64,000 nucleotides of DNA from Aliterella atlantica CENA595 (GTDB taxonomy: Bacteria; Cyanobacteriota; Cyanobacteriia; Cyanobacteriales; Chroococcidiopsidaceae): contig NZ_JYON01000002.1 in NCBI RefSeq assembly GCF_000952155.1, forward strand, positions 248,001-312,000. The letters are read 5' to 3'. The notes below the pieces were generated by a model. The model searched no databases and was not told where the DNA came from. It saw only the letters and a list, made by a program, of their open reading frames with translations. This document shows positions 40,339-58,512 of this stretch, in pieces. Both the position numbers and the translations under genes were made by a program. How positions within the stretch are numbered: the first letter of the stretch is position 1; the number at the start of each line of letters is the position of its first letter.

Positions 40339-40406
40339 ATTTTCATTTGTCTCCCTCTAACGTGAATAAGTTAAGTGTAATTTATTCAGTACGTTATAAT
40401 ACCGCT

Positions 40407-41624
40407 ATGAGTATAACAGTAAACTACGAGTACAAGCTGAAACCTTCACAGCAGCAAATGCAGACATTTGAGGCATGGTTACTTACCTGCAAGAAAGTCT
40501 ACAACTATGCACTGGGCGAACGCAAGGATTGGGTTAACTCTCGTAGGTGTGCTGTTAATGCTTGTAGTCTAACTTCTGAATACATACTACCTCCAGACTT
40601 AGCTCGTCCAACTTACTACAGTCAGTGCAAGTCGCTCACATCAGCAAAGAAGAACTTTGTCGAACTTACTGAACCACATATTCATGTATTACAGCAAACT
40701 CTCAGGCAGTTAGAGGCAGCGTTTGTAAGTATGTGGGAGCGCGGTCACGGCTTTCCCAGATTCAAAAAGAAAATGCGTTCTTTTGTCTATCCAGACGTAA
40801 AGCAAAACGCAGTTGAAGTGGGTCGAGTCAAGTTGCCAAAGATAGGCTGGGTAAGAATGAGGATGTCTAGACCACTACCTGAAGGCTTTATTTTGAAGCA
40901 GATGAGGGTAGCGAGACGGGTAACTGGTTACTTTGTCATGCTAACTTATCAATTAGGCGTACAAGTGCCAGACGTTCCCGCTCATGGTCATTTTCTAGGG
41001 GTAGATATCGGCTTAGACAAATACTTAGCTACCAGTGATGGGGAATTAGTTTCTAGACCTCGTTTTTTTAATGCACTTCAAGGCAAGTTGAAATTACTGC
41101 AACGAAGATTAAAGCATAAGAAAAAAGGTTCTAGTAATTGGCTAAAACTGACTGGCAAAATAGCTAGAATCCATCAAAAAATCAACGATACCCGCAAGGA
41201 TTGGCATTTCAAGTTAGCCCATCAGTTATGCGACAGTGTCGGAGCAATATTTGTTGAAGATATTAACTTTATTGCTTGGGCTAAGGGACTGTTTGGGAAG
41301 CATACACTTGATGCAGCATACGGACAGTTTTTTAATATTTTGTCTTACGTCTGCTGGAAACGAGATGTGTTTTTTCTCAAAGTAGATAAGAACTACACAA
41401 GTCAAATCTGCCCTAATTGTCAAACGCATACAGGCAAAAAAGACTTGAGGCAAAGAACGCATTACTGCTCTAACTGCGGCTATACAACCAATAGGGATGT
41501 TGCCGCAGCCCAAGTAATTTTGCAACGTGGGATTCTGGCGGTCGGGCAGCCCGTCAGTCAAATTGCTTCTGGAGACGTACTGCTGGGGGTTAGTAGCAAT
41601 ACTAATCTAGGTAAGTGTCCGTGA
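40407..41624 (+). CDS. tnpB: RNA-guided nuclease/transposon protein TnpB (IS605 OrfB)
   Basis: The frame is open from 40347, but MSITVNYEYKLKPSQQQMQ at 40407 is the normal TnpB start (405 residues). It has the N-terminal wedge/helical region (LTCKKVYNYALGERKDW) and a RuvC domain with all three acidic residues (GVDIGLDKY, FVEDINF, NRDVAAAQ). The zinc ribbon CPNC...CSNCG lies inside RuvC. It appears intact and so may be active as an RNA-guided DNA nuclease, as shown for ISDra2 TnpB. No tnpA is present. The tail beyond RuvC (SQIASGDVLLGVSSNTN) overlaps the likely guide-RNA region. Confidence 0.93.
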   Translation: MSITVNYEYKLKPSQQQMQTFEAWLLTCKKVYNYALGERKDWVNSRRCAVNACSLTSEYILPPDLARPTYYSQCKSLTSAKKNFVELTEPHIHVLQQTLRQLEAAFVSMWERGHGFPRFKKKMRSFVYPDVKQNAVEVGRVKLPKIGWVRMRMSRPLPEGFILKQMRVARRVTGYFVMLTYQLGVQVPDVPAHGHFLGVDIGLDKYLATSDGELVSRPRFFNALQGKLKLLQRRLKHKKKGSSNWLKLTGKIARIHQKINDTRKDWHFKLAHQLCDSVGAIFVEDINFIAWAKGLFGKHTLDAAYGQFFNILSYVCWKRDVFFLKVDKNYTSQICPNCQTHTGKKDLRQRTHYCSNCGYTTNRDVAAAQVILQRGILAVGQPVSQIASGDVLLGVSSNTNLGKCP

Positions 41625-41663
41625 AAGAAGAATCCACGCCGTAGAACGGCGTGGGAGTGTCAA
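41500..41663 (+). ncRNA. Candidate omega (reRNA) guide RNA of the TnpB element
   Basis: In characterised TnpB systems the guide RNA scaffold overlaps the tnpB 3' end and runs to the right end, with the guide taken from flanking DNA. The matching region here ends at the hairpin and TCAA (41660-41663). The guide would then begin GCGATGCAGTTAGCTAGC (41664 on). Boundaries are inferred. Confidence 0.4.
41634..41654 (+). repeat. Right-end hairpin of the TnpB element
   Basis: Perfect arms CCACGCCG (41634-41641) and CGGCGTGG (41647-41654) around TAGAA lie 9 bases after the tnpB stop. Confidence 0.85.
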
Positions 41664-41751
41664 GCGATGCAGTTAGCTAGCCGTCATCTTGGCAGATAGG
41701 TTATCAATAAATCTAGGGTCTATTGACTCTAATTCCATAATTTTTTAGTTA

Positions 41752-42756
41752 ATGAAAGTCGTATTTTTCGGTACTCCTCAGTTTGCAGTACCTACCTTAG
41801 AGCGCTTGCTAGAACATTCAGAGTTTGAAGTTTTAGCTGTTGTTAGTCAACCTGATAAACGTCGAGGTAGGGGCAATCAAACTACGCCTTCACCTGTGAA
41901 AACTGTAGCCTTGGCGCACGATCTACCTATTTTTTCACCGCAACGGGTCAAAAAAGATGCTGACACGCTGACAGCACTAAAACAGCTTGGTGCTGATGCA
42001 TTTGTAGTTGTTGCTTACGGACAAATTCTGTCTCAAGAAATTCTCGATATTCCCGCTTTGGGCTGTATTAACGTTCACGGCTCTATTTTGCCTAAGTACC
42101 GAGGTGCAGCGCCAATTCAATGGTGTATTTGCTTGGGCGAGACGCAAACGGGGATTACAACTATGCTAATGGATGCAGGTATGGATACAGGTGCAATGCT
42201 GCTAAAAGCTTATACGCCCATTGCTCTATTAGATAATGCCCAAGATTTAGCAGACAATTTAGCCCCTTTGGGAGCAGATTTACTGATTGAGACGCTGACA
42301 AAGTGGGAGGAAATTAGCCCAATACCGCAAGATGATACTCAAGCAACCTCCGCACCGTTAATTCAAAAGTCAGATTATGTCCTAGATTGGCAGCAAAGCG
42401 CGATCGCACTGCATAACAAAGTAAGAGGTTTTTTCCCCAACTGTACGACAACTTTTCGCGGTCAACCTTTGAAAATTATCTCGACAATTCCCTTAGCTGA
42501 AGACTATTTAAATCAATTGCCCCAAAATATTCAAGCTCTTTACCAGCAATTGGATTTAACTTTATCAACGCCAGGTACAGTTATCAGTATTGTTAAGGGC
42601 ATAGGACCTGTAATTGGGACTGGTGCGGGAATGTTGCTCTTACAACAAGTGCAAATGGCAGGAGCGCGATCGCAATCAGGTTGGGACTTTGCTAATGGTA
42701 ATCGGTTAACTGTAGGTGAAGTATTAGCAGTCAATAGCATTCAAGCTGAAAGTTAA
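41752..42756 (+). CDS. fmt: Methionyl-tRNA formyltransferase
   Basis: The 334-residue enzyme formylates initiator Met-tRNA using 10-formyl-THF. It shows the Fmt start [20 protein letters not shown], the basic loop PDKRRGRGN, and the catalytic set Asn107 and His109 ([20 protein letters not shown]) and Asp145 ([10 protein letters not shown]). A C-terminal OB-type domain (about 205-334; [19 protein letters not shown]) binds tRNA. It abuts the convergent gene at 42757 with no spacing. No def gene lies nearby. Confidence 0.96.
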
Positions 42757-43116
42757 TTATCCTTCACACTTTTCGTAATAATGGCAGGATTCGCATGGTC
42801 CTGGAGGGTTGACAGCACAGCGGATAATTTCGGAACGGGCGTTGAAACGACAGCTAGCATCGCCAATTACCCAACGCCCTTCGATCAAGCTCTTTTCACT
42901 TGGTCTTTGTGCTGCTTGGACGTAGATTGCTACTTTATGCAATCGATAGCGCCCTGACTTTAAATGGTAGCGGTGACGGCGCTCTAAGACAGCGTACGTT
43001 TTGCCTTCAATATCTAAATAATTGCCTGGTTGGGGTGTCCAATCAAGTTGGATAGTTCCCAAACACTGACGCGGATGCGTCAAAACAATCTCCGTTGGTA
43101 GCGAATTTTGCTCCAT
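42757..43116 (-). CDS. DUF6464-type cyanobacterial protein
   Basis: The 119-residue protein has a beta-rich first part (YLDIEGKTYAVLERRHRYHL) and a Cys-rich end (GDASCRFNARSEIIRCAVNP, GPCESCHYYEKC), a pattern I associate with the small cyanobacterial DUF6464 family. Five to six Cys residues could bind a metal or Fe-S centre. Function unknown. It is convergent with fmt and the two stop codons abut. Confidence 0.75.
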   Translation of the reverse strand: MEQNSLPTEIVLTHPRQCLGTIQLDWTPQPGNYLDIEGKTYAVLERRHRYHLKSGRYRLHKVAIYVQAAQRPSEKSLIEGRWVIGDASCRFNARSEIIRCAVNPPGPCESCHYYEKCEG

Positions 43117-43345
43117 AAATTAGCCTAAATAAAGATCCTTAATATCTCTTGATAATATCGCGATCGCTTGTTATGAGTTCTTCAGTTTATCTTAAAGATA
43201 AGTCTCTAGTCTAAGAGATAGGAACGCCGCACTATAGCATATGCCCAAGTATTTGTATTGTTCTAGCTATATTGTGGCTCGGAGATAGTAGCAAATCGCT
43301 ACATTAGAGTAGGTGAAAGTTACTAAATTTACTGAATATAAATTT

Positions 43346-43732
43346 ATGCGAGTAAATTGTTCCTACTGCGATTGTAACTGCAACAAAACAACTGATATTG
43401 GAGTTACAAATGATACATTACAACAGTTGATAATAGACTTTGAGGATGAAATCGAAATATTACGCGAACAGTTATACAGCATCACACAACAATTGCATGA
43501 AGAAATTCAAATTGCCCAAAGTTACCGCGAAGAAATAGATTTAGTCCATCAAGATTTAGTTGCAGCAAACCAAGAATTAACAAATTATCATGCATCTTTG
43601 CCTCGGATCAACATTAATGAAGCAAAGCTAATTGCCCAAACAATCGCAAAAAGTAAAAAAACTAAAAGTGCAGCTTTAGCTGCACTTTTACGACATATAT
43701 ATCAGCATCATGTTAAGGAAATAGATTTATAA
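43346..43732 (+). CDS. Small coiled-coil hypothetical protein with Cys-rich start
   Basis: I prefer the ATG at 43346 (MRVNCSYCDCNCNK); a GTG at 43313 adds 11 residues. After a Cys cluster (four Cys in ten residues), a long coiled coil follows (LIIDFEDEIEILREQLYS to LVAANQELTNYH), then a basic helical end. The Cys cluster could bind metal. No family is recognised. The 3' end of the gene encodes a perfect RNA hairpin (43664-43689). Confidence 0.65.
   Translation: MRVNCSYCDCNCNKTTDIGVTNDTLQQLIIDFEDEIEILREQLYSITQQLHEEIQIAQSYREEIDLVHQDLVAANQELTNYHASLPRININEAKLIAQTIAKSKKTKSAALAALLRHIYQHHVKEIDL
43664..43689. other. Perfect 11-base hairpin inside the coiled-coil gene
   Basis: AAAAGTGCAGC (43664-43674) and GCTGCACTTTT (43679-43689) with a TTTA loop form a strong terminator-like hairpin. 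It lies about 40 bases before the stop codon and is fully in the coding frame. Confidence 0.75.
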
Positions 43733-43832
43733 GCGTAATATGTTCGTAGCCACTGCACGAATATATAAAATAACCGCTAAATAGTTTAAGGTTTACTCTT
43801 ATACTATCTGGCGGCAATAATTATCTAAGTAA

Positions 43833-43862
43833 CATAACAAGCCGCGATCGCAGCTTGTTATG
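43833..43862 (-). terminator. Likely terminator of the Hsp20 gene
   Basis: A perfect 10-base stem CATAACAAGC/GCTTGTTATG (43833-43842, 43853-43862) with a HIP1 octamer in the loop lies 4 bases after the Hsp20 stop. The T-run is weak. Confidence 0.6.
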
Positions 43863-43866
43863 AGAA

Positions 43867-44376
43867 TTATACAGTTGCGGTAGTATTTTCAGCTTGGTTA
43901 ACTGCATCGCTTGCATGAGTTGTAGCTGCAGTTGCAGTATTTGTATCTGCTAAATTAACTTTTACTACCTGACGACGTGCTTCAGTAACTTTAGGTAAAG
44001 TTAAAGTCAAAATTCCATCTTGGAATTGAGCTTTTACTTGGTCATTTTGCACCGCAACAGGTAAAGCAATAACGCGCTGGAACTTACCATAACGGAACTC
44101 AGAGCGGAAGTAACCATTCTTAGAGTCTTTGTCGTAACGACGTTCGCCAGCGATCGCCACTGCGCCTTTAGTGACGTTAATATCTAAATCTTGGGCTGCA
44201 ACACCTGGAATTTGGGCGCGGAGGATAATATTTTCTTCAGTGTCTTGCAATTCTACAGCAGGTCGCCAAGTTACTTGCGCCTCATGCTTGGCTTGTGCTA
44301 CTTCATCAAAAACACGATCCATCTGACGGCGTAGAGCTTCCATTTCTTGCATCGGTTGCCAACGAATTAGTACCAT
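43867..44376 (-). CDS. hspA: Small heat shock protein Hsp20/alpha-crystallin family
   Basis: The 169-residue chaperone has a short N-terminal arm (MVLIRWQPMQEMEALRRQMDRVFDE), an alpha-crystallin domain (about 37-135; WRPAVELQDTEENIILRAQIPG, then DGILTLTLPKV), and a longer than usual Ala/Thr-rich tail (TNTATAATTHASDAVNQ). The C-terminal IxI-type motif is not clear (VVKVNL). It prevents protein aggregation as an oligomer. It is monocistronic with a terminator hairpin. Heat control (HrcA or CIRCE) is not seen in the short upstream region. Confidence 0.92.
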   Translation of the reverse strand: MVLIRWQPMQEMEALRRQMDRVFDEVAQAKHEAQVTWRPAVELQDTEENIILRAQIPGVAAQDLDINVTKGAVAIAGERRYDKDSKNGYFRSEFRYGKFQRVIALPVAVQNDQVKAQFQDGILTLTLPKVTEARRQVVKVNLADTNTATAATTHASDAVNQAENTTATV

Positions 44377-44510
44377 AACTTAACCTATCTCCAAACCTTA
44401 TTAGTTCAATTCATTTGCTTCACACTTCTCTATGATGCCGACTCTATAAGGGTTTAGCAGTGAGGTAAACCAGATCGTGGCAGCAGTATTTACCCCCTAA
44501 TCCCTCTGAT

Positions 44511-44538
44511 AATTACGAATGCGCGAATGCGCGAATTA
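44511..44538. repeat. 28-base dispersed repeat, copy 2, running into a gene end
   Basis: Identical to 34302-34329. It overlaps the TAA stop of the pixJ-like gene, and its AATTCGT-type continuation supplies the receptor's last codons (Asn-Ser-stop). Confidence 0.85.
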
Positions 44539-47379
44539 CGAATTATCAAAATCCTTGCGGACTTTAAATGTGCCTACCGAGGATTGCAATTGTTGGGCTA
44601 CTTCTACGGTGCGTTTTAGGGATTTAGAAACTTGGCGAGAGGAAATTGCTGTTTCTTCTGATGTTTGGGCGATCGCACTCATTAACTGCGTTACTGCTTG
44701 CGATGTCTCTACTTGCGATACTGTCGCTTGAGAAATTGATTGCACTAATTCGTCAATCGTGCGCGATACCTCAAGAATTTCGCCTAAATTCTTCTTGGTA
44801 TCTTCAACTAAATACGTTCCTTCTATTACCTGCGTGCTGCCTAGTTCCATTGCTTTGACAACTTCGCTAGTTTGTTGCTGAATATTTTCTAGCACGTATT
44901 CTATTTCCTTGGTAGCTGCTGCTGCTTTAGTTGCTAGTTCCCCAACTTCTTCTGCTACTACAGCAAAACCTCTGCCCTCTTCTCCAGCACGAGAAGCTTC
45001 AATGCTGGCGTTAATTGCTAGTACGTTCGTCTGCAGGGCGATTTGATCGATCAAAGCCACAACTTTAGATACTTGTTGCGAAGCTTCGCCCAAACGCTTG
45101 ACTTTGTGCGCTGTTTGTGAAACTGTGTCGCGCAAATTTAAGATGCTAAATACAGTGCGATCCATTGCTGCTTCTCCAGCTTGAGCGCTACTAGAAGCAT
45201 TCCGCGCTATTTGGGCGGCGGACTGGGCGCTATCTGCTACAGATTGGATTGATAGCGTCATTTGCTCTACTGAATCTAGAGTCTGAATAATTTCTTCGCT
45301 TTGCTTGGTAGCTTCCTCAGCTAACTGCCGAATTGCGCCTTCGTTTTCATTAATAGATATATTTACCTTGTCAGTAGCTTGTTTTACTGAGGTAACAATT
45401 TCGCGCAAGCTTTCGACGATCGCATTAAAAAAGTCTGCAACTGTACCGATTTCTCCTGTAGTGATTTCAGCGCGAACTGTCAAGTCTCCGCTGGCTGCGC
45501 CTTCTACTTCACTAAGCAACTCTACTAATTGATTTTGCAATAGCTCTTTTTGCTGGCGTTGCTCCTCGGACATGGCTTCTGCCGATTGCCGCGATTTTTC
45601 TACTTGCTCTAACAAATTGGCTTGGTCTAAGGCAAAACCGATTTGTGCGGCTAATTGCGTAAATAAATTGATTTCTGTATTTTGCCAAGTACGCGGTTCC
45701 GAGCAATGATGAGCGATCAATAAGCCGAGCAACTGATTGTCTTTTAATATTGGCGCAACTAAGTTGGCTTTGACTTCAAATCTTTCTAAAGTTTGAATGT
45801 GGCATTCTGTCAACCCTGCTTGATAAATGTCGTTGATTGCCCGTACTCGCCCATTTTTATAACTTTTAATGTGCTTATCTTTAAAACAAGGGTCGTCAAT
45901 AGTGGATGCTAAAGCTTGCGTCCAACCAGGTACTACTGATTCAGCGATCACAGTACCACTCAAATCTGGGTTGAAACTATAGATAACTACTCGCTCGGTA
46001 TGTAGAACTTTGCGAACTTCTCTTACTGATGTTTTGAGGATATCTTCTAAGTTGAGCGAACGGCGGATGCGTAAAGTAATGTCTGTAAATATCTGGGCTG
46101 TTTCGGTGGCAGATTCTTGTCTTCTAATTAGGGTTTGCAGTTGGTCTGCCATTGAATTGATATTGGTTCCCAAAGCTGCTAATTCGTCTTCGCCTTTGAC
46201 CTGCAAGCGTGCATCTAAGTTACCTGCTCCTAATTGGCGTACCGCTTTTGATGCTGCCATTACTGGGCGCAGCGCTCTATTTACCAAAATCGCGGCGATC
46301 GCTGCTACGACTGCGGCGATCGCTAGTGTCACCAATGCTAAAGTCAATAACGGCTCTCTGCGGGCGGCAAATACTTCGTCTGTAGATTGAGTTACCATTG
46401 CATTCCAGTTGAGTTCTGGCAAGCCTGGCACGCCGCCAACAGGCGCGTAAGATACTAAATAGGACTCTCGCTCTAATAAATCGTTGGCAATGGTACTAGC
46501 AACGGTTTTTGTGGTTTTTAATCTCGTTGCTACTGTGGGAAAAATATCTTGAATGTCTTTACCTATATAATCGGTATGCTCTGGGGGCGCAATTACAACT
46601 TTACCGATGTCATTAACAGCAAAATATTCTTCGGAAACGTAGCCGCGAATATTTTGCGCTAGCTTTTTTTCTTCAGTTTGGAGAATGTTATTGAAGTATT
46701 TTAAGGGCGTGCGCGATCGCACGATGGCAACTGTTTCTCCTGTATCTGTATCGACTACTGGTGCGGCGGCAAAAATTGAATATTCTCCGGTTCCCGATGA
46801 CTTTCTCGGCGGGGTAATTACCGGACGGTTGGTTCTGAGAACTTCTTGAAAATAATTGATTTCGCTATAGTTAGGCAGTTTACCACCACCTGATTGCAGG
46901 GTCGTATTCCCTGTCAAGTCGATGACTGCAATACTGTCATATCCTGGATTTTCTTTAATATATCGCTCTAATATTGCTTGCTTGGTCGGATCTGAAGTAG
47001 TTGCGCGGGTGTTGGGATTGTTGAGAATGCTAAGTTGAGCTAACGATTGAATATCGCGATAGCGTTGCAGGGTGAATGCATCTATTTGGCTAGCTAATGC
47101 CAGCGTGCGGACTTTTTGTTGTTGTTCTATATTGTCAACAATCCTGCGGCTAGTTAGATAAGAAGTTGCCAGACCGACTAAAATAATTGGGATGGCGCTA
47201 AGAGCGATCGCGATAAATGTCGCTTTGGCTCTCAAACTCATTCCCCGCTTCGATATAAACTGTGTTTGAGGTACTGAGTAGCTAGTTGGAGCGATTATTT
47301 CGTCTGCATCTTCAAGGATTGGACTTTGAATGTTTTGATCTTTATCTGCTGGCGATTCTGGCTCAAATTTTGTAGTCAT
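44536..47379 (-). CDS. pixJ: Methyl-accepting phototaxis receptor with DXCF-type cyanobacteriochrome GAF (PixJ-like)
   Basis: I prefer the Met at 47379 (MTTKFEP), with GAGG at good spacing; a Met two codons earlier is too close. The ~947-residue protein has a membrane helix (about 52-72), an extracytoplasmic Cache-type domain, a second helix (about 340-365), HAMP, a GAF domain (about 435-595), a second HAMP-like linker, and the MCP signalling domain with its conserved tip ([29 protein letters not shown]). The GAF has DPCF (Cys codon 45886-45888) and CH (Cys codon 45802-45804), 28 residues apart. That is the DXCF cyanobacteriochrome pattern of PixJ. The last codons come from a dispersed repeat. 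Confidence 0.88.
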
Positions 47380-47440
47380 ACCCATGCCTCAAAGTAATAT
47401 TGCTCTGGCAAATTATTTTTTTAGCTTCAGCTAATTTTCA

Positions 47441-47935
47441 TTAGTTTTTCAGATGAGGCGAACGGACAATCGCCTCAGCGTTCAAAACCAGTAATGTTTG
47501 ATTTGGTTGTGAAATACATCCATGCAAATAAGCAGCTAGTTCTGACTCGACGTTGTTTGAGGGCGATTGAATGCTATCTGGGAGAAATCTCGTCACGCCT
47601 TTAACTTCAGCAACAACAAATCCTATACTAATTTGCCCGACACGAACAATTACTATGTGATACTGTCCAGCAATGGGATCGGGCTTTGGTAAATTTAGCA
47701 ACCCAGCAAGACTTACTACCCAGATGACACGGTTGCGCCGATTTAATAGTCCTAGCACGCATTCAGGCATATTAGGCATTAAAGTTAAGCGGCTACTTGG
47801 CACTACTAGCACTTCTTGAGCGTGTGCCATTGATAGTACCGCAGGAGTATCATTGTTTAAATAAAAGTTTAAATAACTGTCTCCCGCAGGTTTATCTGTT
47901 CGATCTGACTGGGGTTCTATTTTAAAAGTATCCAT
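47441..47935 (-). CDS. pixI: CheW-like coupling protein (PixI-like)
   Basis: The 164-residue single CheW domain shows LNNDTPAVLSMAHAQEVLVVP, NMPECVLGLLNRRNRVIWVVSLAGLLNL (the GxxNxR-type block) and VRVGQISIGFVVAEVKGVTRFL. CheW links the receptor to the CheA kinase. The gene lies 2 bases after the CheY-like gene and 61 bases before the receptor, in PixG-H-I-J order. Confidence 0.88.
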   Translation of the reverse strand: MDTFKIEPQSDRTDKPAGDSYLNFYLNNDTPAVLSMAHAQEVLVVPSSRLTLMPNMPECVLGLLNRRNRVIWVVSLAGLLNLPKPDPIAGQYHIVIVRVGQISIGFVVAEVKGVTRFLPDSIQSPSNNVESELAAYLHGCISQPNQTLLVLNAEAIVRSPHLKN

Positions 47936-47937
47936 CG

Positions 47938-48300
47938 CTAACCCACTACAGATTTAACAGCATGAAGTATTTGTTCTTTGGTAAATGGCTTAGTGACATA
48001 AGCTGCTGCACCTTGTTTCATGCCCCACACGCGATCGATTTCTTTGTCTTTCGAGCTACAAATAATAATTGGCACTTGCTCGGTTGCTGGATTTTTTTTC
48101 AGATGACGGCATAACTCAAAGCCGCTCATTCCAGGCATCACGACATCGGTGACGATCGCATCTGGTTGTTTTTGCACTGCTTGAATCAAAGCATCTTTAG
48201 CATTAGTTGCCAGAATTACTGTATAACCGCTATCGCGTAAATACCCGCCCACCAAATCTAGCAGCGATACTGTATCCTCAACTAATAAAACTGTACTCAC
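47938..48300 (-). CDS. pixH: CheY-like response regulator (PixH-like)
   Basis: The 120-residue stand-alone receiver has the acidic pair Glu8/Asp9 (LLVEDTVSLL), phosphoacceptor Asp52 (AIVTDVVMPGMSG), Ser in IICSSKD and Lys in YVTKPFTKEQ. It has no output domain. By gene order it is the PixH-type regulator receiving phosphate from the CheA/PixL kinase and acting on type IV pilus function. It is 2 bases before the CheW gene. Confidence 0.92.
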   Translation of the reverse strand: MSTVLLVEDTVSLLDLVGGYLRDSGYTVILATNAKDALIQAVQKQPDAIVTDVVMPGMSGFELCRHLKKNPATEQVPIIICSSKDKEIDRVWGMKQGAAAYVTKPFTKEQILHAVKSVVG

Positions 48301-48332
48301 AATTTAACTTTCCTTACAGCAGTTTAAGCAAT

Positions 48333-49688
48333 TTAAGATAAGTGTCTAAATACCATTTTTAGTAATTCTGATTGAGTAAAAGGCTTAGTTAAATACCCTG
48401 ATGCCCCTACAACTCTTGCTTTTACTCTATCAATGATGCCTGTATTTCCTGTCACCATAATAATTGGTGTATTTTTGAAAAAAGAATGGTTCCTCAATAA
48501 ACGACATAGCTCATAACCATCGATTCCAGCCATTTTTACATCTAGTAAAATTAGATCGGGTTTTAGTCTGACTATTTGCATTAAGGCTTTAATTGAATCG
48601 CTAATAGTTGAAACAGAAAAACTTTCATCATCAAGAAAATAGCTCAGTTCTCTTAACATCGCTGGACTATCGTCCACGCAGACAATTTTGTAAGTTTTCT
48701 TATCTGGCTCTGAGATGCTGCTTAAAGGCGGGGTTGGGCGATCGCGTTCTAAGCTATGCTTGTTGATTGGCTCTAGGTTGCGCGAGGAATTGCTGGCAAA
48801 TTGCCCTACTCCTGGTACTGGTGTCAAAGAAACGTCTCTCTGCGGGCGATCGCTTGGCAATGGCGGCATCAGCTTGCTATTGGCTGCTGGGGCAACATTT
48901 CTCTCTGCTGACAATGCTTCCCCAATTTTTGGCAAGCTATCAAAGGGCGGTTGAGGTTCGTGTAATAGTATGTTGCCGTTGGCTATGTATGGATGCAAGC
49001 TTTGGGCTAATCTCAACTCGTCTTGGTTGAGTAAAATCGCTAAGTGCCGAAAACTAAATCCTTTTAAAATTGCTGTTAGTTTTTGCCTTAATTCTGGCGA
49101 TAGGTATTGCGTTTTACTGTAAGAATTGGCTAAGTAAGGGCGTTGGTATGGAGAAGTAATTTCTGGTGCTAATGCTTGCCAGGAATGCAGTTGTTTTTGA
49201 GCGTGGTTGAGCAGCACAGATAAATCGAGTTGACAAAACTTTGGCGTTGCTCCGCGATCGCCTGCTAACTCGTAACTGCCTTCTTTAACTAATAAAAATG
49301 ACTCAATTACTTCTCTTACTAAGCCTTCAATTAAGTTTTCTGCTTGCTCGATCGCTAAATATTTGCGTTCGATTAACCAACAAATAGCTTGATAATCAGG
49401 TGCGATCGCCGCGCTATCTTCTGTTTCGTTCTCAAACATCAATCGCAGTTTAGAGCGGGTTTCGCTACCTAACGTGGGAATTTTCTGAGCTAGGCGGCGT
49501 AAGTGACAGTCTAAGCGATCGAAGGGATCTACAGAATGAGATGCGTAAATAATTTTTCCGTTCTCTAAATATATAGACCACGAAACTGATTTGCTCAACA
49601 CTTTCAGATGAGCGCTATCGTAGCAATTAGACAAATGCGCTAACAAACTGAGCGGGCGTAGTTTTTGGAATGTTCCACAGCTAGTCAT
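48333..49688 (-). CDS. pixG: PatA/PixG-like regulator (PATAN/DUF4388 domain plus receiver)
   Basis: The 451-residue protein has the PatA-type N-terminal (PATAN) domain (about 1-240; KSVSWSIYLENGKIIYASHS is typical), a variable Pro/Ser/Arg-rich linker (about 255-330), and a C-terminal receiver. The receiver has VCVDDSPAMLREL, the phosphoacceptor Asp in LILLDVKMAGIDG and YLTKPFTQSELL. PixG-class proteins interact with pilus motors for phototaxis. It is the first gene of the four-gene operon, 32 bases before the CheY gene. A long spacer upstream is shared with the divergent PP2C gene. Confidence 0.88.
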   Translation of the reverse strand: MTSCGTFQKLRPLSLLAHLSNCYDSAHLKVLSKSVSWSIYLENGKIIYASHSVDPFDRLDCHLRRLAQKIPTLGSETRSKLRLMFENETEDSAAIAPDYQAICWLIERKYLAIEQAENLIEGLVREVIESFLLVKEGSYELAGDRGATPKFCQLDLSVLLNHAQKQLHSWQALAPEITSPYQRPYLANSYSKTQYLSPELRQKLTAILKGFSFRHLAILLNQDELRLAQSLHPYIANGNILLHEPQPPFDSLPKIGEALSAERNVAPAANSKLMPPLPSDRPQRDVSLTPVPGVGQFASNSSRNLEPINKHSLERDRPTPPLSSISEPDKKTYKIVCVDDSPAMLRELSYFLDDESFSVSTISDSIKALMQIVRLKPDLILLDVKMAGIDGYELCRLLRNHSFFKNTPIIMVTGNTGIIDRVKARVVGASGYLTKPFTQSELLKMVFRHLS

Positions 49689-50317
49689 TTAGCACTCATC
49701 CCTTTGAGCAGATGTGAGGACTTCAATCATTAAATTAATTTGCCAAGTTTGAGCTTTAAGTTGGGCAAAAATGCTGGACGTTGGCAGTAATTTAGTACAT
49801 ATAATTCTATATCAAGTCTTTTCTATTTTTAAAATGCACAAAATTTTCGATATTTTTTACTGCGCTTTCTGCCTGTACTTAAGGCATTAGTATTACTTTA
49901 CACTTAAATATTGCTGCCTTACTATGGTTCAGCAGATACCAACAGTTGTAGCTTTAAAGCTTGCCAGTCGGTAATTCGCCTGATTTCTTTACAGATGTTA
50001 ACTATATACTTGCCGAAAAATTTCGCTCATCCTCAGTAAAATGCACCAACATTTAGTTATAATTTTAACATAAATTGGCAATAAGCGTTAAATTATAAAC
50101 AATCAAGGTAAATATAGATTTATTAAATATGATATAGAATGAAAAAACTGCGCCAGCACTAAGTGTTCCTCATCGTAGCTGGAGAAAAGGCTAAAATAAA
50201 GACCGCTCGATCGCCAAGCGAGATTGAGGAGGAAGCCAACAGTCAAAACAAATATATGGATGTAAATTGAGCCAAAGGTAGTTTAGATCGAGATGTAGCG
50301 ATCGCCAAAAAAGATAA
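49689..50317. promoter_or_regulatory. Divergent spacer between the phototaxis operon and the PP2C-kinase genes
   Basis: About 630 bases without a gene. It should hold promoters for both directions. A CCAGC...GCTGG inverted pair near 50153-50181 and a purine-rich tract at 50226-50238 are the only structures I noticed; neither is a recognised regulatory element. Confidence 0.5.
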
Positions 50318-51121
50318 ATGCAGATAGAAGACAATATCTCTAAAGAATTAGGTCATTGGCGGGTAGTAGGAGCCTCAGTGTTAGGCACAAGTCACCAGAA
50401 AGTCAAACAACTGTGCCAAGATGCTCATCATTGGGAGATATTGCCAGAAGGTATATTAGTAGCAGCTGTAGCAGATGGAGCGGGATCGGCAAGTTTGGGT
50501 AAAGTAGGGGCAATAGTTGCCTCGCAAACAGCAGTCGAAACAATCCGCGCCAAGTATGGAGCGATAACTGCGCGAGGACAAGCAGCAATAGATGAAAACA
50601 CCTGGCAATCATTGCTCGCAAGTGCCGTAGAGAACGCCAAAACAGCAGTAGAAGAAGAAGCGATCGCCTGCCAAGTTAGATCCAGAGATTTGGCAACAAC
50701 ATTAATTATCGTAGTAGCAACACCAGAATTAATTGCCGCAGTTCAAATAGGTGATGGCGTAGCAGTAGCTGGAGACAAAGCTGGAAACATCGTGGCTTTG
50801 ACAGCACCTCAGCGCGGAGAATACGTCAACGAGACAATTTTCTTAGTTTCGCCTGACGTTTTAGACAATATTCATGTAAATATCTGGCGCGGGACTGTAG
50901 CTAATATTGCTATTCTCTCAGATGGGTTGCAAATGCTAGCTCTAGAAATGAACGGAGGTAAACCCTATGCGCCTTTTTTTTTCCCGATGTTTCAATTTGT
51001 GGCGGGCGTAACTGATGAAAGCGAAGCTAAAGAGCAGCTAGTAGCGTTTCTGCGCTCAGAACGCATCTCCACTAGGACGGATGATGATTTAACCCTTTTA
51101 CTGGCGACTATCGTAAACTAA
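50318..51121 (+). CDS. PP2C family Ser/Thr phosphatase (YegK-like)
   Basis: The 267-residue phosphatase has the PP2C metal-site motifs: GTSHQKVKQLCQDAHHW with the first Asp, VAAVADGAGSASLGKVGA with the DG pair, LIAAVQIGDGVAV, and TDDDLTLLLATI at the end with the second metal Asp. It resembles the compact PP2C_2 group found with atypical kinases and VWA proteins (E. coli YegK-YegI-YegL; TerY-linked sets). The kinase gene follows after 4 bases. No VWA gene is adjacent. It would reverse phosphorylation by that kinase. Confidence 0.88.
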   Translation: MQIEDNISKELGHWRVVGASVLGTSHQKVKQLCQDAHHWEILPEGILVAAVADGAGSASLGKVGAIVASQTAVETIRAKYGAITARGQAAIDENTWQSLLASAVENAKTAVEEEAIACQVRSRDLATTLIIVVATPELIAAVQIGDGVAVAGDKAGNIVALTAPQRGEYVNETIFLVSPDVLDNIHVNIWRGTVANIAILSDGLQMLALEMNGGKPYAPFFFPMFQFVAGVTDESEAKEQLVAFLRSERISTRTDDDLTLLLATIVN

Positions 51122-51125
51122 TGCC

Positions 51126-53246
51126 ATGAGGTTGCAACGTCAATTCGAGACACAGATTATTACCATCGACCCTACCTCGACTTTAGGACATGGGGGCGAG
51201 GCGAGGGTGTATGCAGTGCCGCAAGATGAGTCTTTGGTGGCAAAAGTTTATCACAAGCCTACAGAGGCTCACGCCGATAAACTTTTAACCATGCTGGCTA
51301 ATCCTCCCGACAATCCTGCAGGTAGCAAAGACCATATATCAATAGCTTGGCCCGTAGACGTACTGCGAACGGTAGATAGCAAAAAACAGGTAGTTGGGTT
51401 TTTGATGACGCGAGTCAAAGAAATGCACTCGCTGCTGGACTTTTACAACCCGAAAACTCGGCGGCAAAAGTGTCCCTTTTTTGACTATTTGTATTTGCAT
51501 CGTACAGCCCGTAATTTAGCAGCAGCTTTTGGTGCTTTGCACGCACGCGGCTATTGCATTGGCGATGTCAACGAATCAAACATTTTAGTTAGCAATACAG
51601 CATTAATTACATTAGTTGACACCGACTCGTTTCAAGTCAGAAACGAGCGCAGCGGCAAAATTTACCGCTGCGGCGTGGGCAAACCAGAGTTTACACCTCC
51701 AGAACTCCAAGGATTAAGTTTTGCCCAACTAGACCGCAAACCAGAACACGATTTATTTGGGCTAGCTGTACTGCTATTTCAACTATTGATGGAAGGAACC
51801 CATCCTTTTGCTGGCATCTATCAAGGCGGGGGCGAACCGCCACCTTACGAAGCCCGAATTGCTGCTGGACACTTCATCTACAGCAGGCGGCGCGTGCCTT
51901 ACTTACCTACCCCCATCGCGCCCAAATTTGAAATGCTGCACCCGACGTTGCAGCAATTATTCGTGCGCTGTTTTGAGGACGGACACAAAAATCCCCATAT
52001 GCGCCCCAACGCGCAAACATGGCAAAGTGCCATTAGCGAAGCAGAACAAGATTTAATTGCTTGCAGCACCAACCACCATCATCGTTATGGCAAACATTTA
52101 AGCGCTTGTCCTTGGTGCGAACGCACGATCAAACTAGGAGGACGCGATCCTTTCCCCTCAGTGCAAGCAGTCAAACAGGGTAAGCACCTCCAACCTTTGA
52201 AAAAACCAAAAAGGTACATTCCGCAAACAGTCAAACCAGCACTTGCCTACTATAGTCATAGCCCAAACAAATTAGTGCCGATCGCGGCAATGGGGCAACT
52301 GCACAGAACGACGACAAGACGCAAATACAAACACGCTTCTATCTATGGTTTGGTAGGGGCTGGGGCAGTGGGAATGTTGGGAGTAACGCTACTAATTAAA
52401 GACTTTAAATTGTCAACGAAAATTAGTAACGTGCTGTTCTCTGGTGACGATCGCGTATTAGTAAGCGATCGCGCAGTAGACCTCAACAAAGATTCTAGTA
52501 ACTACTATTACCAAGGCAAAATTTATTCCAAATATGGCGACTACGAAGGCGCGATTGAAAACTTTAACCAAGCTTTGAACATCAACCCTAATGATGCTCA
52601 AGCTTACATCGGACGCGGTAATGCCCTCTATGAGAATGCCCAACACAGCGGCAATCCTGATAACGAGTACAAAATCGCCCTCAAAGACTTCGACCGAGCT
52701 TTAAGGCTCAAACCCGATGAAGCAGAAGCTTATATCAGCCGAGGGATTGTCCGCTACAACATGGCAGAATATAGCAAAAATGCCAGTAGCGATTATAAAG
52801 CTGCGATCGATGATTTTAACCAAGCAATTTTAAGAAACCCTAATAGCGCCAAGGCTTATGTCAAACGCGGGATTGTTTACCACAAGCAAGCCCAACAACG
52901 AGGGGACTTCGGTTTTGGCTATCAAGAAGCACTCAAAGACTTCAATCAAGCCTTAAAAATTAACCCCCAAGAAGCTGAGGCTTATGTAGAGAGAGGAAAC
53001 ATTCTTTATGAATTAGCAAAGCTAACGGGACAACAAGACAAAAAATACTGGGAGGCAATGGCAGATATTCAAACAGCCGCCAAGATATTTTTAGAGCGTA
53101 AAGATATGGAACAATACCAACAAGCTCTGGATAATCTCGGTAACATCTGCGTGGCAGTAGAAACTAACTGTCATTCGTTGATCAAAAATTCTGCAGACAA
53201 GCCACCTAAATTAGACACACCGCCGCGATCGCCCAATAAAAGTTAA
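51126..53246 (+). CDS. Atypical YegI-like Ser/Thr kinase fused to membrane helix and TPR repeats
   Basis: The 706-residue protein has a kinase-fold domain (about 1-310) with degenerate motifs. The glycine loop is GHGGEARVYAV, the lysine is in LVAKVYHKP, and the catalytic-loop equivalent is YCIGDVNESNILV. The metal loop reads DTDSF instead of DFG. A CPWC-type Cys pair follows the kinase (about 330-340), then a single membrane helix (about 400-425) and at least five TPR-like repeats (about 455-670; AIENFNQALNINPNDAQAYI, ALKDFNQALKINPQEAEAYV). It matches the YegI/TerY-associated kinase class. The TPR part would be outside the membrane if the kinase is cytoplasmic. Confidence 0.85.
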   Translation: MRLQRQFETQIITIDPTSTLGHGGEARVYAVPQDESLVAKVYHKPTEAHADKLLTMLANPPDNPAGSKDHISIAWPVDVLRTVDSKKQVVGFLMTRVKEMHSLLDFYNPKTRRQKCPFFDYLYLHRTARNLAAAFGALHARGYCIGDVNESNILVSNTALITLVDTDSFQVRNERSGKIYRCGVGKPEFTPPELQGLSFAQLDRKPEHDLFGLAVLLFQLLMEGTHPFAGIYQGGGEPPPYEARIAAGHFIYSRRRVPYLPTPIAPKFEMLHPTLQQLFVRCFEDGHKNPHMRPNAQTWQSAISEAEQDLIACSTNHHHRYGKHLSACPWCERTIKLGGRDPFPSVQAVKQGKHLQPLKKPKRYIPQTVKPALAYYSHSPNKLVPIAAMGQLHRTTTRRKYKHASIYGLVGAGAVGMLGVTLLIKDFKLSTKISNVLFSGDDRVLVSDRAVDLNKDSSNYYYQGKIYSKYGDYEGAIENFNQALNINPNDAQAYIGRGNALYENAQHSGNPDNEYKIALKDFDRALRLKPDEAEAYISRGIVRYNMAEYSKNASSDYKAAIDDFNQAILRNPNSAKAYVKRGIVYHKQAQQRGDFGFGYQEALKDFNQALKINPQEAEAYVERGNILYELAKLTGQQDKKYWEAMADIQTAAKIFLERKDMEQYQQALDNLGNICVAVETNCHSLIKNSADKPPKLDTPPRSPNKS

Positions 53247-53375
53247 GAATTATTAATTTAAAGGTACATATTTGAGGCAGTGCTACCTATGTAAGACTAG
53301 CAGTAGCTGCACAATTGTCTAGCCTATAAATATCCGATCGATATTCGAGCATTTTTACAGCAAATTGATAATGCT

Positions 53376-56030
53376 ATGTCTGACGACACAGAAAATGAGA
53401 TTAGATTGCAGTTTTTAGAAGAAGCTCAAGAGTATGCCAAGACAATTGAAGCGAAGTTAATAGAATTAGCTAGCAACAAAAGCGATCGCATTGATGCCAT
53501 ATTACGGGCTGCCCATTCTATCAAAGGTGGCGCGGCGATGATGGGTTTCCAAAAGTTGAGCGATTTGGCTCACCGTCTAGAAGACTTTTTTAAGGTATTA
53601 AAAATCCAGCCAGACTTAATCGATCGCGATCTAGAACAATTATTGCTCGCTGCTGTCGATTGCTTGCAGCAAGTTATTAGCTACAATTTGCAGGGGATGA
53701 TAGTTGACGAACAATGGTTAGCAAGTCAAGCTTATCCACTTTTTGACCAACTAGATCGACTAATTGGTTCGCCTCAAGCCGAAGACGAGCGCAACATCGG
53801 CGGGGAAGATGGGCAAGACATGGCGGCGCTGATCTTTGAAACAGAAGTTGAAGATTATTTGCAGCGCTTAGAATCATTGCTGGTGAATCCCCAAGAAAAT
53901 GATTTACTACCAGAAATTTCCTCAATGGCGCAGGATTTGGGCAGTTTTGGCGAAATGCTACAGTTAAATGCCTTTGCCAAGCTGTGCGCGTCTATTTCGC
54001 AGCAATTAGCAGATACTCCAGAGCAAGTAGTAAGTATTGCAGAGCAAGCCTTGCAAGCATGGCGGCGATCGCAAGCGATAATTTTAGTTGGCGAAATCCA
54101 AGCTCTACCTACTTCGCTCAATTTAGATGCAGAAGCCCAAGAACCAGATTCAGAACTGTTTTTAGCAGATTTCGATCTGACAAATCTAGATGCTGAAGTC
54201 GAACAACTAGCATCTTCAGCTAAGACACTTAGCTTACCTGGCGCAAATAACTCAGCAGAAGCTCAAGAATATCAAGAAAGTACCGTACGAGTACCGACAA
54301 AACTACTAGAGCGGTTAAACGATTGGTTTGGCGAACTAACTATTGCTCGTAATGGCATCAACATCTATGTAGAACGCCTGCATAGCCTAAATAAATTGCT
54401 AGAGCGCAGAGTCCAAGCAGTCGAAAAAGAGCGGATTATGCCTGTGGGCGAATTGCCAACTACCCAGAGCGTAGAAGCATCTGAAGCTATGCTGCAAGCT
54501 TTAGTTCAATTGCAAGAAGTTAAAGACGATATCGAACTTACCTTAGAAGAAAGCGATCGCGCAGTTAGCGACTTAAACCGCGTCGCTAAACAATTGCAAA
54601 CTAGCTTAACTCAAGTGAGAATGCGACCTTTTGCCGACTTGGTAGCTAGGTTCCCCCGCTTTATTCGCGAACTGTGTTTAGAGTATGGCAAAAACGCTCA
54701 ATTAAAAGTTATTGGCGAACAAACTTTAATCGAGCGAACTATTTTAGAAGCTTTAAATAACCCTTTGATGCACTTACTGCGTAATGCTTTCGATCATGGC
54801 ATTGAACCAGTGGAAATTCGCCAGGCTAGTGGCAAACCAGAAGTAGGGTTAATTGAAATTAAAGCTGTTTACCAAGGCAATCAAACTTTAATTACGGTTA
54901 AAGATGATGGTGGAGGTATTAATTTAGAGCAAATTCGCACTAAAGCGCAACAATTGGGTATTGACTCCAATATCAGCGATGAAAAGTTGTTAAGTTTAAT
55001 TTTTGAGCCGGGTTTTAGCACCGCAAACCAAGTTACAGCCTTATCTGGTAGAGGTGTAGGGATGGATATCGTGCGGACTAACCTCAGACAAATTCGCGGC
55101 GATATTAAGGTTGATACGCAGTTGGGAGTGGGGACAACCTTTACTTTAAGCGTTCCGTTTACGCTGTCCGTCATGCGCGTAATTGCGATCGAAATTAACT
55201 CTCTGCTGCTGGCTTTTCCTTCTGAAGCTATTCGTGAGGTACTATTATTTAGTGCGTCACAGTTTTGTGAAATTGCTGGTAATGAAGCGATTAGTTGGGA
55301 AGGACGGATCGCTCCGTTAATTCGGCTGGAGGAGTGGTTGAAAGTTCGCCATCTTCCTCAAAAAGCTGCTGAGAGTAAGCTGCTAGCGCCAGAACCAACA
55401 GTATTAACAATCGAACGCGAAAACGAGTGGGTAGGATTGCTAGTCGAGCGTTCTTGGAAAGAACAAGAAGTTGCTATTCGCCAAGTTGAACCAGGAATTG
55501 AGATGCCAACTGGCTTTAGTAGCTGTGCGATTTTAGGTGATGGTAGAGTTGCGCCGCTAGTTGATGTACCTCAACTGCTAGATTGGATTAATAATTTCGG
55601 ACAATCGGGCGATCGCCCACTGGAGACTCCTACACGCGAAACAGAAGGCGAAGCTAAAGATACAATTTTGGTAGTAGATGACTCAATTAATGTTCGGCGC
55701 TTTTTGTCTTTGACTCTAGAAAAAGCTGGCTATCGCGTCGAACAAGCGCAAGATGGGTTATCTGCACTAGAAAAGCTGTCTGCTGAACTACCAATTAAAG
55801 CTGTAATTTGCGATTTGGATATGCCTAATCTGGATGGTTTTGGCTTATTAGCGCGTGTCAAATCTAATCCTGCTTTTGCTAGGCTACCTATAGCGATGCT
55901 AACTTCTCGCAGCGGGCAAAAAGATCGTCAAACAGCGATGCAGTTAGGCGCAACAGCTTATTTTGCTAAACCTTATAACGAACATGAGTTGCTGCAAACT
56001 CTCAAGCAAATGTTGCATAAACGATCGTAA
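53376..56030 (+). CDS. pixL: CheA-like hybrid histidine kinase with C-terminal receiver (PixL-like)
   Basis: The 884-residue protein has an Hpt domain with phosphoacceptor His47 (AAHSIKGGAAMMG), a second degenerate Hpt-like helical region (about 145-240), and a dimer/linker helix region. A CheA ATPase domain follows (about 420-580; NNPLMHLLRNAFDHGIE, GRGVGMDIVRTNL), then a CheW-like regulatory domain (about 590-740) and a receiver (about 755-880; VVDDSINVRRFL, CDLDMPNLDG, FAKPYNEHEL). This is the PixL/HmpE-type architecture of cyanobacterial phototaxis kinases. It lies apart from its PixGHIJ partners, on the opposite strand. Confidence 0.92.
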   Translation: MSDDTENEIRLQFLEEAQEYAKTIEAKLIELASNKSDRIDAILRAAHSIKGGAAMMGFQKLSDLAHRLEDFFKVLKIQPDLIDRDLEQLLLAAVDCLQQVISYNLQGMIVDEQWLASQAYPLFDQLDRLIGSPQAEDERNIGGEDGQDMAALIFETEVEDYLQRLESLLVNPQENDLLPEISSMAQDLGSFGEMLQLNAFAKLCASISQQLADTPEQVVSIAEQALQAWRRSQAIILVGEIQALPTSLNLDAEAQEPDSELFLADFDLTNLDAEVEQLASSAKTLSLPGANNSAEAQEYQESTVRVPTKLLERLNDWFGELTIARNGINIYVERLHSLNKLLERRVQAVEKERIMPVGELPTTQSVEASEAMLQALVQLQEVKDDIELTLEESDRAVSDLNRVAKQLQTSLTQVRMRPFADLVARFPRFIRELCLEYGKNAQLKVIGEQTLIERTILEALNNPLMHLLRNAFDHGIEPVEIRQASGKPEVGLIEIKAVYQGNQTLITVKDDGGGINLEQIRTKAQQLGIDSNISDEKLLSLIFEPGFSTANQVTALSGRGVGMDIVRTNLRQIRGDIKVDTQLGVGTTFTLSVPFTLSVMRVIAIEINSLLLAFPSEAIREVLLFSASQFCEIAGNEAISWEGRIAPLIRLEEWLKVRHLPQKAAESKLLAPEPTVLTIERENEWVGLLVERSWKEQEVAIRQVEPGIEMPTGFSSCAILGDGRVAPLVDVPQLLDWINNFGQSGDRPLETPTRETEGEAKDTILVVDDSINVRRFLSLTLEKAGYRVEQAQDGLSALEKLSAELPIKAVICDLDMPNLDGFGLLARVKSNPAFARLPIAMLTSRSGQKDRQTAMQLGATAYFAKPYNEHELLQTLKQMLHKRS

Positions 56031-56199: not shown

Positions 56200-58512
56200 T
56201 TAGTTTTGTTCGGCTATTGGTAATAGTAAGCTATCTTCAATTTTTTGTCTGACTGCGCGGCTCATGTAACTATTAGATATCAGACAACTTACTAATAACT
56301 GGTTGGCTTCATAATATTGTTTTAACTTCTCTACCTGCTGTGAATTGAATTGCCAAGCGTAGCCAATATCACGGCTAGAGATGACAATACTTCTTATTTT
56401 CTCTAGCCAATCTTTACTATTATTTTTCCACCATATACTAAACTCAGATTTATTACTATTTTCCCTAGGTAGTTGTTGGTAAATTTGTTGAAGCTGTTGT
56501 TCTAACTCACAATCTATAATTTGCGATCGCTCTAAGGTTCTGGTGATAACACTATTAACTACTCGACTAGGTTGTACGGCACAATCAATAATGCGATCTA
56601 GTGCTAAAGTGCGATCTAGTGCTAAATCTAACGCTAAGTTTGGAGTAAGTTTATGTGTAAAACACTCGTCTAGCGCCCTTGATAAATCTAGCGTACCGCC
56701 GATTGAATTAAGTATTCTTGCCAAATCGAGGTCAAAGTAAAAAGCTCTTATTGTTGCTAGTTTATGCTCTGAAGATATTTGACTAGACTTCCTTTTTACC
56801 CAATTTAAAAAAGCTTGTAGTTGTTCGTCATCGGCTAACAAACGATCGATTTTTTGCTTCATCAACATTAAGATATAATCTGCATTTCTCAGCATACCCA
56901 CTGTCAGTAAAAAGATTTCGCGCCAACGTCTTTCAGTAATATGACTAACTAAGTCTTGCAAGCCTTGTTCTAATACTTGTGGATCGGAGCTAGCAATAAT
57001 TTCTTTAGCAGCGAAATACTCGTGAAATGTTAAATGAGAAAATGAGTATATTCCTCTAGCTCTCTCTACTAATAAACCATGTTGAGCCTCAATTGATTTA
57101 AGTACCGCTTCACTGTCTAGCTGAAGAATTTCGGCGCTGGTACTAACACTAGGTAAATTACAAATGTAATCAGCTATTTGCCTTTCTAATTCATTTTGTT
57201 TGAAAAAATAGTCTCCTCTTTGAAATGTTTTTAAGGCAATTTGGCTAAGTAAATCTTCCTTATGCTGTACCGATAATTTTTTATATATTTGTTCTCTTTC
57301 AATATTGCGCTTGGCATCCCACTTTCTTAATAATAAATTTAAGCCTTCTTTGTATAGTTCTGAAGTATTAGCTGGAAAATCCTCCATTTCTTCAAATACT
57401 AAACATAGCATTGTTAGCAATAGTGGGTTTGTTGCTAATTCTTTGATTGGTGGAGTTTGATTGATTTTATGGATAAACTTTTGACTTTTAACTTCCTGTT
57501 TGTCGCTAAACCAGTTTTTAGTAAAAGTAGTAATTTGTTCGCTATCAAAATCAGCTATTTCTACTTCAGTAAATTCTTCAAGCGTATATTCATGCGTAGC
57601 TATCCTACACGCGATCGCAAAATAATTGCGATGAAATTTGCTGCTAAAACTACGAACTTCTTGCAAGACGCGATAGCAGTCTACCTCGCGAATTTCATCA
57701 AGTCCATCTAGCAAAATTAATGCTTTACCTTGACTTAATATCTGTTCTGCTATTTCTGAATCTTCGATACCATAACTTACGAATTGCTCTTTGATATATT
57801 CGAGTAACAACTTAGTTTTATCATTTTCCGCAAAATCTTTAAGTGTGATAAAAATTGGTATTTTATTGTTTTCTAGCTTGCCCAAACTACACTGCATAGC
57901 TAAATACTTTAAAAAGGTAGTTTTGCCTGCACCTGGTTTACCTAAAACAATTAGTTTTGGATATTTGTTAACAGCTTCTAAACCGGATATTCTGTTTTGA
58001 ATAATCTTGCCTAACCCAGGGCGCTCAAAATCGTCAGCAGCGCATACTTTTAGTAACTCTTCAACTCCTAAGCGCCGCCTACCAATAATTTTTTCTAAAA
58101 TATTGACCTTGGTATATATCCCATCCAAACTAATTGGTTGAGACATATCTAAAACGCGAATCATCCCGCATTTTTGTTGAATGCTAGCGTGTTGCTTGTC
58201 TCTTACCTCTTGTACTGCTACATTGATATCGCTATACTGTCGATGTAACTGTAATTTAGCTGTATTATCGTCACTTATATCAGCAACTTCTTGCCAAGGT
58301 AGTTCTAACTTTTCACAAATATGATGAAAGTTTTCTCTACCCACAGGTTTGCCTGCAAAAAATTTTTGCACTGTAGCGCGAGATATCTCTAACTCCGCTG
58401 CTAAGTCTATTTTGGTATGAAAGGCTAGTACAGCTTTTTTAGCACGCTTGATGCCGTCAGGAGATGCTTTTAGACTTCGCCTCGCCCTTTCTGTCATGCT
58501 TGTTAAAGACAC
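56200..58512 (-). CDS. HTH-NACHT STAND ATPase, bacterial NLR-like
   Basis: The 770-residue protein has an N-terminal XRE/Cro-like helix-turn-helix (about 30-78; IDLAAELEISRATVQKFFAG), a linker, and a NACHT ATPase with Walker A GKPGAGKTTF (191-200) and Walker B ALILLDGLDEI (264-274, the DGLDE form typical of NACHT). Helical winged regions follow. The C-terminal stretch RDIGYAWQFNSQQVEKLKQY and ANQLLVSCL resembles the short NACHT-associated C-terminal domain of bacterial bNACHT proteins, some of which block phage. Here the N-terminal module is an HTH rather than a nuclease. A signalling or defence role is inferred. It stands alone with AT-rich spacers. Confidence 0.82.
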   Translation of the reverse strand: MSLTSMTERARRSLKASPDGIKRAKKAVLAFHTKIDLAAELEISRATVQKFFAGKPVGRENFHHICEKLELPWQEVADISDDNTAKLQLHRQYSDINVAVQEVRDKQHASIQQKCGMIRVLDMSQPISLDGIYTKVNILEKIIGRRRLGVEELLKVCAADDFERPGLGKIIQNRISGLEAVNKYPKLIVLGKPGAGKTTFLKYLAMQCSLGKLENNKIPIFITLKDFAENDKTKLLLEYIKEQFVSYGIEDSEIAEQILSQGKALILLDGLDEIREVDCYRVLQEVRSFSSKFHRNYFAIACRIATHEYTLEEFTEVEIADFDSEQITTFTKNWFSDKQEVKSQKFIHKINQTPPIKELATNPLLLTMLCLVFEEMEDFPANTSELYKEGLNLLLRKWDAKRNIEREQIYKKLSVQHKEDLLSQIALKTFQRGDYFFKQNELERQIADYICNLPSVSTSAEILQLDSEAVLKSIEAQHGLLVERARGIYSFSHLTFHEYFAAKEIIASSDPQVLEQGLQDLVSHITERRWREIFLLTVGMLRNADYILMLMKQKIDRLLADDEQLQAFLNWVKRKSSQISSEHKLATIRAFYFDLDLARILNSIGGTLDLSRALDECFTHKLTPNLALDLALDRTLALDRIIDCAVQPSRVVNSVITRTLERSQIIDCELEQQLQQIYQQLPRENSNKSEFSIWWKNNSKDWLEKIRSIVISSRDIGYAWQFNSQQVEKLKQYYEANQLLVSCLISNSYMSRAVRQKIEDSLLLPIAEQN

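Follow-up and report, generated by a model that had tools for sequence, protein, structure and literature searches.

The window, by which we mean the whole 64,000-nucleotide stretch of the Aliterella atlantica CENA595 genome analyzed here, carries a gene for a PixJ-type receptor together with the other components of a pix locus (Table 1). The predicted product is a membrane-spanning receptor whose HAMP, GAF and MCP domains were identified by Pfam, the GAF being of the cyanobacteriochrome type and the MCP domain serving as the output. Its first ATG is at 47385; a preliminary description of this DNA had placed the start at 47379, which is the second methionine of the N-terminal MGM and makes the gene six bases shorter, a trivial slip. 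Two hydrophobic stretches (residues ~53-75 and ~346-368, by inspection of the sequence) lie on either side of the dCache domain, which is therefore expected on the periplasmic side, and this domain may bring in a chemical input besides light. A dCache domain is not peculiar to this PixJ, as the receptor at a Thermosynechococcus-like locus (L055) carries one too, in the same dCache-HAMP-GAF-MCP order and with an output domain and PixL that fall in the same clades as those of the window. A literature search turned up no paper on Cache domains in PixJ.

Table 1 Features of the pix locus in the window (positions are those of the window)
Feature	Position	Strand	Evidence or remark
pixJ	44536-47385	-	949-aa open frame; dCache 81-318, HAMP 367-417, GAF 445-586, MCP signal 725-907 (Pfam)
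MCP signalling domain of PixJ	44665-45213	-	Pfam MCPsignal E 1.5e-37; groups with pix-locus receptors
Cyanobacteriochrome GAF domain of PixJ	45628-46053	-	Pfam GAF; TePixJ 3VV4 E 4e-43; AF2 pLDDT 89; best match TePixJ in Foldseek and VIA
Cys528, canonical bilin cysteine of the CH motif	45802-45804	-	Codon TGC; aligned with TePixJ C522
Cys500, DXCF (second) cysteine	45886-45888	-	Codon TGT; aligned with TePixJ C494
dCache_1 domain of PixJ, periplasmic (expected)	46432-47145	-	Pfam dCache_1 E 5.9e-21
pixI, CheW-like	47441-47935	-	Pfam CheW E 3e-26
pixH, CheY-like	47938-48300	-	Pfam Response_reg E 4.6e-27
pixG, PATAN (DUF4388)-receiver response regulator	48333-49688	-	DUF4388 E 2.6e-17; Response_reg E 2.5e-27
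PP2C-type phosphatase	50318-51121	+	Pfam PP2C_2 E 3e-51; first gene of the divergent set carrying pixL
Protein kinase-like protein with TPR repeats	51126-53246	+	Pkinase 30.4 bits, just below the 31.7 cut-off; TPR_11 E 8.9e-28
pixL, CheA-type kinase (Hpt, HATPase, CheW, receiver)	53376-56030	+	Pfam; PixL clade with 39 others, support 100

Upstream of pixJ on the same strand are pixI, pixH and pixG, so that the window shares the set of PATAN-CheY, CheY, CheW, MCP-cyanobacteriochrome and CheA proteins with the tax1/pix cluster of Synechocystis PCC 6803, which includes PixJ1 (TaxD1) (PMC5812497). The Synechocystis receptor differs in having two GAF domains, with the bilin on the second, whereas the PixJ in the window has one. 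The two loci also differ in the position of the kinase gene. In this case, the downstream neighbor of pixJ is an Hsp20 gene, in the place where pixL normally sits, and pixL is found about 6 kb from pixJ on the opposite strand, after the PP2C and kinase-TPR genes. Adjacency of pixJ and pixL is usual for such loci, although not strictly defining.

Both cysteines of a DXCF cyanobacteriochrome are present in the GAF domain. On the minus strand GAC CCT TGT TTT encodes DPCF, which places Cys500 in an Asp-Xaa-Cys-Phe motif, and GAA TGC CAC ATT encodes ECHI, which contains the canonical cysteine of the CH motif, Cys528. Translation confirmed the cysteine codons that had been reported earlier as well as the distance between them, exactly 28 residues. 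As had also been pointed out, C494 and C522 of TePixJ from Thermosynechococcus elongatus (PDB 3VV4, 4GLQ, 4FOF, 6PRU), its two thioether, bilin-linking cysteines (PMC6955287), are the same distance apart in the 3VV4 sequence. This spacing carries no independent weight, because it is general to DXCF GAF domains and was seen in most of our alignment. A phmmer search against the PDB returned solely cyanobacteriochromes in its top ranks, with TePixJ chains at E 4e-43 and below and the motif region ungapped, which argues that the cysteine pair is not a product of chance.

Over its length the GAF domain aligned with that of TePixJ without gaps, with 70 of 149 residues identical (47%), and each of the two receptors has a single GAF domain. 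Residues named for the TePixJ pocket are D492, C494, H498, W499, R507, C522, H523, Q526 and N535 (PMC6955287). Equivalents of D492, C494, F495, Y503, R507, C522, H523 and N535 are kept in the window's GAF, while H498, W499 and Q526 are replaced by K, H and T, respectively. These are ordinary alternatives, since among the 206 dual-Cys GAF domains in the comparison set R or K predominates at position 498 and Y or H at position 499, and T ranks second in frequency at 526. Alignment to characterized cyanobacteriochromes, which the preliminary description had proposed as a check, thus bore out the DXCF, CH and pocket residues, with three contact positions differing by common substitutions. Membership in the extended red/green (XRG) cyanobacteriochromes, which are defined by a WXDXXL motif and the lack of a DXCF cysteine (PMC11284453), was ruled out, as the cysteine is present and WXDXXL is absent from the translated domain.

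The predicted structure was in agreement with the alignment. An AlphaFold model of the domain (AF2, 39 sequences) had a pLDDT of 89, and its best Foldseek match was TePixJ 4fof (E 5.6e-20). By VIA, 4glq, also TePixJ, shared first place with other cyanobacteriochromes (Z 24.2, rmsd 2.0, 149 residues). The model, the alignment and both searches point to a cyanobacteriochrome GAF fold with its pocket residues. One heme oxygenase and one PcyA, as needed for bilin supply, are encoded in the genome. A bilin-binding cyanobacteriochrome with two cysteines, as first predicted, is thus well supported by sequence, model and genome, but the blue/green color pair that came with the comparison to TePixJ does not carry over with certainty. 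We consider the PixJ GAF domain a well-supported candidate for a bilin-binding, dual-Cys DXCF cyanobacteriochrome whose colors are predicted.

The reason for this caution lies in the phylogeny of the domain. In the GAF tree, TePixJ grouped with ptx-type GAF domains (support 99/98) and the window's domain grouped with those of its own family. A tree that joined the window-type and TePixJ domains was rejected by the AU test (p 0.004), a value weakened by the fact that the group was chosen after the first tree had been seen. The earlier emphasis on TePixJ therefore overstated the relationship, in that the likeness holds at the level of the subfamily and the two domains are not orthologs, and it is for this reason that the photocycle of one is not a sure guide to that of the other. 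A further difference is that pixL is not adjacent to pixJ in the window. No spectrum or bilin-binding report was identified for this domain or any member of its DXCF lineage.

The output domain and the kinase gave a different picture from the GAF domain. Forty syntenic PixL proteins, including those of the window and of the Thermosynechococcus-like locus, formed one clade with support of 100, apart from all other CheA proteins from this and other genomes, and the MCP output of the receptor fell in the pix-locus clade (58 rows, support 99). By this placement, the MCP output and CheA kinase in the window are true Pix orthologs. Domain exchange, or differential loss among tandem GAF domains, would explain the conflict between the GAF and output trees, and PixJ proteins with one to five GAF domains have been reported (PMC13383048). 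As judged from its locus and output domain, the receptor is classed as a PixJ whose DXCF GAF is not the direct counterpart of that in TePixJ. The ptx-type loci, such as that of Nostoc PtxD and one in the window's own genome (C27, L058), resemble the window in encoding MCP receptors with DXCF GAF domains, CheW, CheY and CheA. They differ in having several GAF domains or receptors and a CheA that reaches no more than about 42% identity in its best stretch, and their proteins fall in separate clades.

Within the family of the window, the receptor was present in 18 of 19 genomes. Both the DXCF and the canonical cysteine were kept in every PixJ found (18/18, the window plus 17 further genes in 17 genomes). 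The GAF domains were 77-88% identical within the genus and the closest genera and ~65% identical in more distant ones. Retention of both residues even in the distant genera argues against chance. Gloeocapsopsis crepidinum LEGE 06123 (L038/L081) and other Chroococcidiopsidaceae have a PixJ that is 62% identical with the same cysteines, and the PP2C and kinase genes are divergent upstream.

Outside the family the pattern was more varied. Among the 20 best full-length homologs from other genomes (L038-L057), both cysteines were found in five, the canonical one only in nine with a "DP-L...CHC" GAF, the DXCF position only in two, and neither in four. The "DP-L...CHC" domains of filamentous relatives were considered as decayed DXCF domains, which was ruled out: four two-GAF receptors (L137, L144, L145, L151) carry a CHC-type GAF1 before a DXCF GAF2, which sets the CHC type apart as a GAF lineage of its own. 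Three homologs from the same order (L043, L049, L050) branch within the DXCF clade, and both of their cysteines have been lost, with DPYF or DPGF in the first motif and no canonical cysteine. These receptors are encoded within an intact pixGHIJL gene order and may represent a switch from photoreceptor to chemoreceptor. The identity of a locus as pix does not by itself predict the presence of two cysteines, and the pix loci of the same order with one or both of them lost make clear that a gene called "pixJ" by synteny need not encode a photoreceptor.

The PixJ in the window belongs to a known family and is well preserved; what is unusual is the position of the kinase gene, which lies outside the operon throughout the genus as far as this can be tested. 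In the comparison set, pixL directly followed pixJ in 36 distinct genomes (37 loci, as one genome contributed two) and was displaced in three, namely the window, Chroococcus sp. CMT-3BRIN-NPC107 (L076) and Chlorogloea sp. CCALA 695 (L077). Across the family, with gene order read in detail for L160-L162, the displaced arrangement was found in all four genomes of the genus that had both genes on one contig and in none of 12 genomes of other genera. Gloeocapsopsis crepidinum LEGE 06123, unlike the window, has pixL directly after pixJ with a gap of 33 bp. In sister genera, the PP2C-kinase pair is divergent from pixG and lacks pixL. Since displacement is limited to this genus and the gene pair occurs without pixL in its sisters, the most likely history is a single move of pixL, at the root of the genus, to the end of the PP2C-kinase pair.

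A tblastn search for pixL remnants beside pixJ (41601-44700) found none above chance, and promoter and terminator scans of 43700-53500 gave no excess over shuffled sequences. A TnpB gene of the IS200/IS605 type (40347-41624) and a gene for a NACHT-NCH2 protein (56200-58512) flank the region, neither of them tied to the move of pixL. A second MCP-signal protein of 501 residues, with no GAF or cache domain, is encoded at 60157-61662, 4 kb past pixL. In the displaced PixL all four domains (Hpt, ATPase, CheW and receiver) are still present, and its sequence shows AAHSIKGG as the Hpt motif and GRGVGMDIV as that of the ATPase, so the kinase is probably active. In the Chroococcidiopsidaceae MAG YX2bin18 (L080:11709-14573), pixL is split into several open frames, either a pseudogene or an assembly error.

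In the established model for the tax1/pix system, light alters the receptor and the receptor alters PixL, which phosphorylates PixH and PixG, and these work on type IV pili (PMC5812497). In the receptor of the window, phycocyanobilin would be bound by Cys528 at ring A, and Cys500 would add reversibly to C10 to give a dark state absorbing in the blue or violet, most likely with isomerization to phycoviolobilin. Photoisomerization between 15Z and 15E would break the Cys500 bond and yield a green-, teal- or orange-absorbing state. The state of the GAF domain would then alter MCP and PixL activity, with PixL phosphorylating PixH and PixG, the latter of which would work on the pili via its PATAN domain. 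Among the pilus genes of the genome are a pilB-pilT-pilC cluster and one more for PilT.

We put the probability at roughly 85% that the receptor is a photoreceptor of the PixJ type and controls motility by type IV pili in response to light, whereby the cell may read light direction or only light quality and intensity. The motif and its spacing, the TePixJ alignment, the AF2 model, conservation in the family, the orthology of PixL and the MCP output, and the genes for PcyA, heme oxygenase and Pil proteins together make this the best explanation. Counted against it are the GAF lineage, which differs from that of TePixJ, the position of pixL outside the pixJ operon, and the coccoid form of the named relatives (Chroococcus, Chlorogloea, Gloeocapsopsis). 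The stronger claim first made, of a light-direction system and not ordinary chemotaxis, is plausible and goes beyond the evidence, as the receptor also has its dCache domain and direction sensing by PixJ itself has been left open (PMC5812497, PMC13383048). It is nearly an even bet that the bilin-binding DXCF photoreceptor instead tunes the light quality or sensitivity of motility, or serves a different role of the type IV pili, for instance aggregation or DNA uptake, and does not sense light direction. PixJ of Phormidium lacuna negatively modulates photophobotaxis in a light-dependent manner (PMC13383048), and in Synechocystis PixJ cannot be the sole direction sensor (PMC5812497). Against this reading, phototaxis is reversed in pixJ or pix-cluster mutants of Synechocystis, and TePixJ has a polar location in the cell (both PMC5812497).

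The photocycle itself may differ from that of TePixJ, for example as a blue/teal or violet/orange pair or through incomplete formation of phycoviolobilin. We regard this as a serious minority possibility, given the separate DXCF lineage of the domain, the three replaced contact residues, and the range from blue/green to red/green among PixJ homologs (PMC7690835), whereas the retained DPCF, CH and pocket Asp, Arg and Asn leave no missing tuning residue that would exclude blue/green. It is very improbable that the GAF domain is degenerate, with cysteines retained by chance in what is purely a dCache chemoreceptor. Degeneration at the pix locus does occur, as in the three cysteine-less receptors of the same order, but it is hard to reconcile with the unbroken conservation of both cysteines across 18 family genomes, the high GAF identity among near relatives and the kept bilin pocket. 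The PixJ-type photoreceptor remains the preferred reading, and the new position of the kinase gene in a PP2C/protein-kinase set raises the rather speculative and, in our view, unlikely idea that the amount or activity of PixL is set apart from the receptor, possibly by Ser/Thr phosphorylation, for a receptor whose GAF belongs to a DXCF lineage in which no measured photocycle was located.

By these results, a pix photoreceptor system that looks intact is present in a family of coccoid cyanobacteria. Our searches found no study of light-controlled movement in this family, and no useful papers on Chroococcidiopsis phototaxis and pix genes. The locus offers a natural comparison, in which a shared output and kinase lineage is joined to a different photosensory GAF lineage, along with a genus-wide relocation of pixL.

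The same genome carries other chemotaxis-type loci whose receptors contain DXCF GAF domains, one with two adjacent receptors of two GAF domains each (L058, on C27) and one with a receptor of three (L060, on C38), and judging by these genes, light may be sensed by the cell through several receptors. This PixJ also occurs in a record named "Tatlockia sp." (Legionellaceae; L078), a title that looks wrong; contamination was rejected as an explanation, as the same gene is found in a genome placed in the window's own cyanobacterial genus (G293). Another record, titled "Myxococcota bacterium" (L085), encodes a two-GAF MCP receptor of cyanobacterial type together with a CheA and is likely a mis-binned contig.
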